This document shows positions 5,439 to 36,706 of a stretch of DNA of 36,706 nt, piece by piece (within the stretch, counting starts at the first letter, position 1; the number at the start of each line of letters is the position of its first letter). The stretch comes from Deltaproteobacteria bacterium. GTDB taxonomy: Bacteria; Myxococcota_A; Polyangia; Haliangiales; Haliangiaceae. The stretch spans positions 1 to 36,706 of the forward strand of contig JAFAOG010000508.1 in the NCBI GenBank assembly GCA_019237945.1, given 5' to 3'. The position numbers and the translations under genes are program-made. The notes under the pieces are model-generated. The model was not told the DNA's origin, searched no databases, and worked only from the letters and a program-made list of their open reading frames with translations.

Positions 5439-5450
5439 TAACGTGCGCAC
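5439..5450 (+). promoter_or_regulatory. -10-like TAACGT for a leaderless panE transcript
   Basis: TAACGT at 5439-5444 is followed by six bases and then the GTG start at 5451. There is no Shine-Dalgarno. Transcription would begin at or next to the start codon. Confidence 0.45.
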
Positions 5451-6434
5451 GTGCCACGCATCGTCATCTTTGGAGCGGGCGCGATTGGCTGCTGGATCGG
5501 CGGGCGCCTCGCGGTGGGCGGCGCCGATGTCACGCTCGTCGGGCGGCCGCGCGTGCTCGGCGAGCTCGAGCGAGGTCTGCAGGTCAGCGAGCTCGGCGGC
5601 GGCCAGTGGACGGTGCATCCGAAGCTCTCGACCGAGGCGATCGATGGCGAGCTGATCCTCGTGTGCACGAAGTCGGCGCAGACCGCCGATGCCGCGCGCG
5701 CGCTCGCGGGCACGACCGGAACGATCGTCAGCATGCAGAACGGCGTGCGCAACGTGCCGGTGCTGCGCGAGCTGTTGCCGGGGCGGCGCGTGCTCGCGGG
5801 GATGGTTCCGTTCAACGTCGTGAAGCGCGGGCCGGGCAGCTATCACCGAGGCTCGGGAGGCACGCTTGCCGTCGAGAATTCCGACGCAGCGGCGCCGCTC
5901 ACGGAGGCGTCTCTGCGCGCCGACCTCGCGCTCGACCTGCGCGATGACATGCTCCCCGTGCAGTGGGCAAAGCTCGTGATGAACCTCAACAACGCGATCA
6001 ACGCGCTGTCGGGACGGCCACTCGCGGACGAGCTCGCGCAGCGCGGCTATCGCCAGATCCTCGCCGCGGCGCAACGCGAGGCGCTCGATCTCCTGCGCGC
6101 GGCGCACATCGAGGTCGCGCGCGTGACCATCGTGCCGCCGCGCTGGATGCCGCGCCTGCTCGCCCTGCCCGACCCGCTGTTTCGCCGGCTCGCGGGCCGG
6201 GTCGTCGCGATCGATCCGTACGCGCGATCGTCGATGTGGGACGACCTCGAAGCGAGGCGCCCGACGGAGGTCGACTACATCAACGGCGAGGTCGTCGCGC
6301 TCGCCGAGCGCCTCGGCACACACGCGCCGGTCAATTCTGGGCTCGTCCGTCTGGTGAGGGAGGCGGAAGGCGGCGGGAAGCGCGATTTTTCCTCGGACGA
6401 GCTGCGTCACGCGCTCATGCGCTCCACAGCATGA
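5451..6434 (+). CDS. panE: 2-dehydropantoate 2-reductase family protein
   Basis: The family reduces ketopantoate to pantoate with NADPH in the pantothenate/CoA pathway. The 327-residue protein has the N-terminal Rossmann glycine motif GAGAIG at residues 8-13. The nucleotide-domain segment CTKSAQT follows, then the MQNGV loop. The C-terminal helical domain carries KLVMNLNNAINALSG with the catalytic Lys, and SSMWDDLEARRPTEVDYINGEVV, the family's substrate-binding signature. The GTG start is directly before the Rossmann beta strand. The 3' end overlaps the convergent small membrane gene by 20 bases. Some homologues act on other 2-keto acids, and pan genes are absent nearby, so the gene symbol is probable rather than certain. 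Confidence 0.85.
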   Translation: MPRIVIFGAGAIGCWIGGRLAVGGADVTLVGRPRVLGELERGLQVSELGGGQWTVHPKLSTEAIDGELILVCTKSAQTADAARALAGTTGTIVSMQNGVRNVPVLRELLPGRRVLAGMVPFNVVKRGPGSYHRGSGGTLAVENSDAAAPLTEASLRADLALDLRDDMLPVQWAKLVMNLNNAINALSGRPLADELAQRGYRQILAAAQREALDLLRAAHIEVARVTIVPPRWMPRLLALPDPLFRRLAGRVVAIDPYARSSMWDDLEARRPTEVDYINGEVVALAERLGTHAPVNSGLVRLVREAEGGGKRDFSSDELRHALMRSTA

Positions 6435-6981
6435 CGGCGAACCCGCCGCCGATCGCGCCGAGCAGCAGTGCGTCGAGGAACCGTCCGTAGCTCTGGAGGC
6501 GTGCGCGCAACGGCGCGCGGCCGGTGTGCTCGCGCACGGGGAGATCGGCGCGCTTCATCTGGCGCACGATCGCGTCGTAGCGCTCCCAGTCGCGCGCGGC
6601 CAGAAACCACCACGAGCCACGCTTGGCCTCGAGCGCGACGCCGTCCTCGTACGCGTGCGCCGTGACGATCCGCGACGCCTGCTGCGTGAAGCTCATCGCA
6701 TCCCAGCCCCAGCGCACGCCGTCGCGCGTGATCGCGAGCTGGGCGCGGCGGACCGCGAAGCCGAGCAGCGCGATCGCGAGGAACGCGACCGGCAGGATGA
6801 CCTGCGTCGACGCGTGATAGCGATACGGATGGCGCGACACGGCGAGCCACGTCAGCGCCCCGAACGCGACAACGAGCACGACCGCGATCGTCGCGAGCCG
6901 GCGGCTGCGCGCGGGAGGCCGGAACTGACCGAGCGGCGTTCCGACGAGCCCGATCCCCGGCGGGATGTCGACGACGCTCAT
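6415..6981 (-). CDS. Membrane protein with PH-like soluble segment
   Basis: This 188-residue protein of unknown function starts one base after the glnD stop, so it is probably the last gene of the kinase-glnD operon. Two adjacent transmembrane helices (about residues 29-50 and 58-79) precede a soluble part of about 80 residues. That part contains LAITRDGVRWGW and a Trp-rich GSWWFLAARDWERYD. A last hydrophobic stretch lies at about 168-188. The two-helix-then-beta layout resembles bacterial PH-domain membrane proteins, but the similarity is only by pattern. The stop lies inside panE, giving a 20-base tail-to-tail overlap, so a terminator for either gene would have to lie within the opposite coding region. 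Confidence 0.75.
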   Translation of the reverse strand: MSVVDIPPGIGLVGTPLGQFRPPARSRRLATIAVVLVVAFGALTWLAVSRHPYRYHASTQVILPVAFLAIALLGFAVRRAQLAITRDGVRWGWDAMSFTQQASRIVTAHAYEDGVALEAKRGSWWFLAARDWERYDAIVRQMKRADLPVREHTGRAPLRARLQSYGRFLDALLLGAIGGGFAVMLWSA

Positions 6982-6982
6982 C

Positions 6983-35876: not shown

Positions 35877-35885
35877 ACCAGCGCA

Positions 35886-35946
35886 GTTCGAGGCGCTTCC
35901 ATCGCGGGTCTTACGCGGTTCGAGGCGCCTCCATCGCGGGTGCTAC
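35886..35946 (+). repeat. Two 29-bp direct repeats at 32-bp period upstream of the third kinase
   Basis: Copy one (35886-35914) and copy two (35918-35946) differ at three of 29 positions. Both start GTTCGAGGCGC and include CCATCGCGGGT. The second copy contains the perfect palindrome GAGGCGCCTC and runs into the -10-like TACACT. The 32-base spacing is close to three DNA turns, so two proteins could bind the same face. The short gap holds no gene. Confidence 0.75.
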
Positions 35947-35956
35947 ACTGGTCTCG
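35944..35956 (+). promoter_or_regulatory. Extended -10 TGCTACACT of the third kinase gene, leaderless type
   Basis: TACACT (35944-35949) is preceded by TGC, giving an extended -10, and ends seven bases before the GTG at 35957. There is no Shine-Dalgarno. Confidence 0.55.
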
Positions 35957-36706
35957 GTGGAGGCGACCCGGCAGGACACGGCCCGCGACCCCGCCGCGGA
36001 TCCACCGCTCGCCGCCGGGACCGTCGTCGGCGAGTACACGATCGACTGCCTGCTCGGCCGCGGTGGCTTCGGCAACGTCTATCGCGCGACCCAACCTCTC
36101 ATCGGCAAGCAAGTCGCGGTCAAGGTCCTCGCGCTCCGCTACTCGGTCGATGCCGCGATCGTGTCGCGCTTCGTCGCCGAGGCGCGCGCCGTCAACCAGA
36201 TCCGCCACCCGAACATCATCGACATCTTCTCGTTCGGCCAGCTCCCCGACGGCCGCCACTACTACGTGATGGAGCTCCTCGACGGCGAGCCACTCGATCG
36301 CCTCGCCGGCGCCCTCACTCTCGCCAACGCCCTTCCCATCCTGCGCGCGCTCGCCCGCGCCCTCGACGCCGCGCACGCCAAGGGAATCGCGCACCGCGAC
36401 CTCAAGCCGGAAAACGTCTTCCTCGCCCGCGACGCCGACGGCACCCGCTACCCCAAGCTCCTCGACTTCGGCATCGCCAAGCTGCTCGCCCCCGAAGGCG
36501 CCGTCGCTCACCGCACCGCCACCGGCACGCCGCTCGGCACGCCCTATTACATGTCGCCCGAGCAATGCCGCGGCCGCGACGTCGACCACCGCACCGACAT
36601 CTATTCGTTCGGCATCCTCACCTACCGCGTGCTCACCGGCGCCTATCCGTTCACCGGCGACTTCATGGAGCTGATGACCGCGCAGGTCGCGAGCGAGCCG
36701 CCGCCC
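35957..36706 (+). CDS. Ser/Thr protein kinase, partial (C-terminus beyond window)
   Basis: 250 codons from GTG 35957 to the window edge encode the N-terminal kinase domain. Visible motifs are GRGGFGNVY (34-42), Lys56, HRDLKPEN (Asp148), DFGIAKLL (170-177), the activation segment with TATGTPLGTP, and SPE instead of APE (200-202). Unlike the two operon kinases it has no N-terminal cysteine ribbon; a short acidic lead of about 25 residues precedes the domain. The rest, probably a TM helix and sensor, is outside the window. Regulation may use the tandem repeat upstream. Confidence 0.9.
   Translation, partial: MEATRQDTARDPAADPPLAAGTVVGEYTIDCLLGRGGFGNVYRATQPLIGKQVAVKVLALRYSVDAAIVSRFVAEARAVNQIRHPNIIDIFSFGQLPDGRHYYVMELLDGEPLDRLAGALTLANALPILRALARALDAAHAKGIAHRDLKPENVFLARDADGTRYPKLLDFGIAKLLAPEGAVAHRTATGTPLGTPYYMSPEQCRGRDVDHRTDIYSFGILTYRVLTGAYPFTGDFMELMTAQVASEPPP

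Follow-up and report, generated by a model that had tools for sequence, protein, structure and literature searches.

The hexamer TAnnnT that stands immediately ahead of many start codons in the uncultured, myxobacterium-like bacterial genome G000 is very probably a σ70-type −10 element, from which transcription would start at the start codon, or 1–3 nt before it, to give a leaderless mRNA. The window, i.e., the whole 36,706-nucleotide stretch of DNA analysed, belongs to this genome. A σ70 −10 element spans positions −12 to −7 relative to the transcription start. Therefore, a hexamer separated from the start codon by six nucleotides (N6) places the transcription start on the first base of that codon, and spacers of N7–N9 place it one to three nucleotides before. 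Hexamers at N5, N9, or N11 give a short leader or need unusual spacing.

In the proposed mechanism, RNA polymerase would initiate on the first start-codon base or 1–3 nt upstream, the mRNA would carry neither a leader nor a Shine–Dalgarno (SD) site, and the ribosome would start directly on the 5′ RTG; we infer both the transcription start and the leaderless translation. Genes read from such promoters would include divergent and lone genes as well as many that closely follow a same-strand neighbour, and those closely following genes that carry a −10 element would be separate transcription units. An earlier reading of the DNA, made from the sequence only, had proposed widespread leaderless transcription at the heads of operons. 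The positional peak, promoter-like detail, SD depletion, and conservation described below fit widespread leaderless expression, and its restriction to heads does not stand.

Position of TAnnnT relative to start codons

Genes were called from coding statistics and start-codon type, without any upstream motif, and the window yielded 26 of them. From the 8.13 Mb of G000, 0.94 Mb was read (822 genes, GC 0.688); the contigs beside C1–C20 were chosen by size and by protein-kinase matches and form a non-random sample. Protein-kinase matches number more than 150 in G000 (C340 and others). Three relatives were read at 0.38–0.39 Mb each: G007 from the same genus, G013 from the same order, and G018 from the same class. 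Expected counts for heads and for close same-strand genes are taken from the region −40 to −19.

In G000, TAnnnT begins at −15 to −12 in 127 of 783 genes (789 minus six at contig edges), about one sixth of the called starts. The count in 100 dinucleotide shuffles is 17.5 ± 3.7 with a maximum of 27, which rules out chance as the source of the peak. Spread over four positions, the shuffled count also agrees with the earlier estimate that TAnnnT occurs at a fixed position in less than 1% of cases. The signal is real and strong. By the strict count, 5 of the 26 genes called in the window carry TAnnnT at −15 to −12 (P = 2.5e-4 at the shuffled rate), and the positional peak is present beyond the window, in the 0.94 Mb of 8.13 Mb that was searched.

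The hexamer is present in 73 of 462 heads of G000 (8.7 expected) and in 44 of 263 genes that lie at most 30 bp from a same-strand neighbour (2.4 expected). Thus it does not mark operon heads as against internal genes, as had been supposed. In heads, its first base is most often at −12 (37 genes), falls at −11 (8), and is never at −10; the drop and the gap are consistent with a requirement that the RNA contain the complete start codon. The start codons behind the hexamer are 43 ATG, 29 GTG, and 1 TTG in heads and 23 ATG and 21 GTG in internal genes. The corresponding counts for heads and close same-strand genes are 29 of 182 (3.8 expected) and 7 of 65 (0.5 expected) in G007, 28 of 181 (4.0 expected) and 5 of 96 (0.5 expected) in G013, and 26 of 193 (5.8 expected) and 4 of 79 (1.3 expected) in G018. 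Outside the class, small samples give 1 of 73 genes in G026 (no excess), 1 of 46 in G034, and 4 of 46 in G027.

Seven other A/T patterns give 8 to 19 heads in G000 against 5.6 to 11.3 expected, with an approximately twofold rise for ATnnnT (19 against 9.3) and TAnnnA (13 against 5.6). AAnnnA is also raised in internal and mid genes (14 against 4.0 in the internal genes of G000).

The GC-matched control, an Azospirillum plasmid (GC 0.688), carries TAnnnT in 3 of 177 heads (3.1 expected) and 1 of 83 close same-strand genes, and E. coli, analysed with the same finder, carries it in 5 of 71 heads (5.5 expected). Plasmid 3 of D. deserti, a megaplasmid intended as the positive control, gives a weak 6 of 88 heads (3.8 expected), and a stretch of D. 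gobiensis, too small a sample, gives 0 of 22. Of 42 annotated E. coli genes the finder recovered 39, 30 of them with the exact start; of 17 chosen D. deserti genes it recovered 15, 10 of them with the exact start. Its accuracy is imperfect, and therefore some real starts are missed. In a start-flexible count, any in-frame ATG or GTG between −150 and +60 relative to the called start is accepted with the motif at N6–N8. Counted in this way, TAnnnT is found in 131 of 462 heads of G000 (12–29 for seven decoys), in 51 of 150 close same-strand genes spaced 5–59 bp (2–8 for decoys), and in 9 of 171 overlapping genes (0–12 for decoys). Allowing for misplaced starts, we estimate the excess at roughly one in four heads and one in three close same-strand genes.

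Promoter-like detail and known systems

The sequence around the hexamer has features of a promoter. With the four genomes pooled, TGn precedes the hexamer in 30 of 156 heads (compared with 7.3%) and, TGA stops excluded, in 18 of 82 close same-strand genes (compared with 5.7%); in G000 alone the excess is borderline (heads, 10 of 73, p 0.063; same-strand genes, 7 of 48, p 0.042). The free positions of the hexamer are biased towards TATAAT in heads: T accounts for 27% of third bases against 14%, and A for 30% of fifth bases against 18%. In close same-strand genes the lean at the third base is present and that to A at the fifth base is absent. A −35 signal (consensus TTGACA, about 17 bp ahead) is weak overall, with TTG 16–18 bp ahead of the hexamer in 8 of 100 heads with TAnnnT, and clear at guaB (8 of 9 loci).

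SD motifs are scarce behind the hexamer. In the pooled genomes, they are found in 9 of 154 heads with TAnnnT against 164 of 807 others, and in 4 of 88 close same-strand genes with TAnnnT against 182 of 531 others; the depletion in heads is not significant for G007 alone (p 0.11) or G013 alone (p 1). Among G000 heads without TAnnnT, 56 of 361 have an SD motif (control region, 10.8%), and 305 of 434 G000 heads have neither TAnnnT nor SD at the called start. The 16S rRNA, sought for its anti-SD sequence, was found in 0 of 20 genomes.

Two other origins of the peak have to be weighed. Gene calling could create it if starts were set just behind in-frame TAA or TAG stops or AT-rich stretches, and indeed a hexamer at N6 lies in the reading frame of the gene, many hexamers open with TAA or TAG, and the finder was exact in only 30 of the 39 E. 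coli starts found. Nevertheless, this is almost certainly not the explanation. The final T of the hexamer is specific: among cases with TAA or TAG at −12, 15 of 19 and 22 of 31 have T at −7, compared with 19%. The peak extends to −13 and −14 (42 in G000 against 5.1), neither of which is in the reading frame of the gene, so that an in-frame stop cannot account for it there. In addition, the heads of Azospirillum and E. coli show no peak with this finder, and the hexamer is kept at homologous starts. Alternatively, TAnnnT could be a translation signal in the leader rather than a promoter, e.g., an A/U-rich stretch recognised by ribosomal protein S1. Such a signal would predict the similar frequency in close same-strand genes and heads, but we consider it highly unlikely: translationally coupled genes with a 4-bp overlap carry TAnnnT in only 5 of 109 cases, other A/T patterns lack a comparable peak, and TGn, the TATAAT bias of heads, and, at guaB, a TTG conserved 17 bp ahead of the hexamer are promoter features.

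The leaderless or near-leaderless expression proposed for G000 is of a known kind, and its framing as a property of heads only is wrong. In Zheng et al. 2011 (PMC3160421), TANNNT is found about 12 bp before starts at a frequency above shuffled sequence, TA-led genes are listed in 8 of 33 delta-proteobacterial genomes (15.8% on average), and leaderless expression is held possible solely for the first gene of a polycistronic transcript. The novelty that the sequence-only reading attached to wide use is thus overstated. G000 resembles these TA-led genes in that TANNNT exceeds shuffles, has its mode at −12, is SD-poor, and precedes ATG or GTG starts; it differs in that, judged by spacing, close same-strand genes carry the hexamer as often as heads. 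For Mycobacterium tuberculosis, Cortes et al. 2013 (PMC3898074) describe a TANNNT −10 element without −35 consensus, TGN ahead of 7% of motifs (against 30 of 156 heads in our four genomes), and leaderless transcripts for 26% of genes with a primary start. Those figures rest on mapped RNA ends, whereas ours rest on sequence. In Deinococcus-Thermus, a different phylum, TANNNT at the start codon is presented by Zhong et al. 2025 (PMC12340547) as the promoter of leaderless mRNAs and was tested there by mutation and reporter. Shell et al. 2015 is cited among the known work on leaderless genes. A search of literature titles found none on leaderless expression in myxobacteria and none on leaderless promoters that lie within operons or overlap stop codons, and literature listings gave no transcription-start map for this group. 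Rules that use SD motifs and spacing to predict starts and operons are ill-suited to such genomes.

Junctions between close neighbours

Among same-strand neighbours of G000 spaced 9–20 bp, 29 of 51 have TAnnnT. By spacing, the counts are 5 of 109 at the 4-bp overlap (−4 bp), 4 of 30 at 1–8 bp, 10 of 11 at 9 bp, 1 of 7 at 10–11 bp, 5 of 6 at 12 bp, 13 of 27 at 13–20 bp, 5 of 23 at 21–30 bp, and 10 of 58 at 31–59 bp. At 12 junctions in 0.94 Mb, the T and A of the upstream TAA or TAG stop are also the first two bases of the −10 element, and at 7 more the upstream stop abuts it. Divergent gaps of 16–35 bp carry TAnnnT in 12 of 22 cases; among divergent pairs separated by 70 bp or less, 22 of 34 contain one or more TAnnnT, and 5 contain two.

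We see an even chance that close same-strand genes of G000 are often separate leaderless transcription units, in which the 9–20 bp spacers hold a −10 element and its 6–9 bp. It is also possible, although we lean slightly against it, that these −10 elements are real but secondary, the operon being read mainly from an upstream promoter with an extra leaderless start inside it. In accordance with such a secondary role, the junction ahead of the ABC gene has TAGGCT in G003 and G005 and no hexamer in G004 and G009, and junctions of 9–20 bp in G007, G013, and G018 carry the hexamer in only 9 of 43 cases. On the other hand, SD motifs are nearly absent from the close same-strand genes with TAnnnT (4 of 88), and therefore translation from a long polycistronic mRNA would miss the usual signal. 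Fusion of the stop with the −10 element (offset 0) is rare in the three relatives (0 of 15, 0 of 13, and 1 of 6). Because of this and of the 9 of 43, the close-junction form may be special to G000 or to its compact spacing.

If the close genes are separate units, operon prediction based on spacing would fail systematically in G000. If close junctions are real promoters, genes would gain or lose a promoter of their own by a few base changes, and one of the main routes of translation in this group would be leaderless.

Individual probable promoters of the window

All eight hexamers listed in the sequence-only reading are found at the spacings it gave. Six of the eight starts (5451, 30462, 32063, 33884, 35235, and 35957) are called independently; that at 19191 is unsupported, and that at 35156 is not the choice of the finder. 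For the two imperfect cases at 841 and 17630, the finder put the starts at 787 and 17552 instead.

On the plus strand, TAACGT (5439–5444) is positioned N6 before GTG 5451 of the PanE/ApbA gene (5451–6434), and its TAA doubles as an in-frame stop ahead of the start. TACCGT (35221–35226) lies N8 before ATG 35235 of a DUF695 protein, and TACACT (35944–35949) lies N7 before GTG 35957 of a protein kinase gene. TACCAT (19179–19184) is present N6 before GTG 19191, and the 90-codon plus-strand frame behind it scores 5.5, is not called by the finder, and is probably not a gene. The −10 element near 19191 more likely belongs to the opposite strand, where an extended −10, TGgTATACT (TATACT at 19175–19180), lies 11 bp ahead of ATG 19163, the start of a sigma54-activator gene (17733–19163); a leader of about 5 nt would result.

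On the minus strand, the run from 35156 to 29755 presents TATGCT, a stop-abutting TACGAT, a further TACGAT, and TATAAC ahead of four consecutive genes. TATGCT (35164–35169) lies N7 before ATG 35156 of a TPR/zincin gene, for which the finder chose the start at 35042. The protein read from 35156 opens with a lipoprotein-like signal, MRWVAVLAVVAGC, in which we presume a lipobox, and this N-terminus makes the start at 35156 plausible. The first TACGAT (33894–33899) lies N9 before ATG 33884 of a GAF histidine kinase gene (32082–33884) and abuts the TGA stop of the upstream gene (33900–33902). The other TACGAT (32071–32076) lies N7 before GTG 32063 of a gene (30480–32063) that follows the kinase gene at 18 bp. 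TATAAC (30469–30474), an imperfect −10 element N6 ahead of GTG 30462, where the ABC ATPase gene (29755–30462) starts, had been counted as TAnnnT and lacks the final T. The figure of about 18 operon heads does not hold: three of the starts placed among them, 30462, 32063, and 33884, follow a same-strand gene at 17, 18, and 15 bp, respectively.

The gene at 30480–32063 encodes 527 residues without a Pfam match and is located between the histidine kinase and ABC ATPase genes. Its homologue was not found behind the kinase in the flanks of 14 relatives, one of which ends after ~26 bp, and in G004, G005, and G009 the ABC gene follows the kinase directly (downstream junction compared at 15 of 16 loci). 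We infer that this gene came in here carrying its own −10 element.

Conservation was followed at four chosen genes, guaB, the histidine kinase, panE, and the ABC ATPase. Homologous starts of the histidine kinase have TAnnnT at N6–N9 in 10 of 16 loci, with differing spacers. Upstream of panE, TAnnnT is present at 3 of 10 loci (10 of 11 counted, the second G013 copy being omitted): the N6 form is also found in G007 and G001 and is absent from the other 7 orthologues compared. Upstream of the ABC ATPase, the count is 2 of 8, with TAGGCT-N6 in G003 and G005, TATAAC in G000 itself, and TAnnnT missing from the remaining 5 relatives compared. Thus the element persists at some genes, and at others it is gained or lost.

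guaB is a strong case. It had been described as TACTAA-N8 with a usable AAGG; the real −10 element is TAAGGT (3983–3988, minus strand), N5 before ATG 3977, and contains the AAGG. It is conserved in relatives, with TAnnnT-N5-ATG at 9 of 17 loci and TAnnnT-N6 at one more. A scan of named genomes with guaB gave mostly distant taxa, the closest being an uncultured Myxococcales bin at 68% and Corallococcus at 65%. In the nine N5 loci, the third base of the hexamer is A, G, or T, and the T, the A, and the last T are invariant. A −35 element, TTGCTC (4006–4011, minus strand), lies 17 bp before the −10 element, and its TTG is kept in relatives, in 8 of the 9 N5 loci (TTG-N20-TAnnnT). The GCGCC between hexamer and ATG (3978–3982, minus strand) is invariant in nine genomes, stricter than spacers elsewhere, and might be a discriminator under control or reflect a constraint on the start region.

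Two further features were seen in the window. A 41-codon ORF at 5279–5404 (minus strand), uncalled by the finder, encodes a small hydrophobic protein, MTNTTALTVRNPQSGKAGYALAWLLGVPLPILLIVYLISRC, and the protein read from 4138 has a glycine/serine-rich repeat encoded at 4885–4935 (plus strand).
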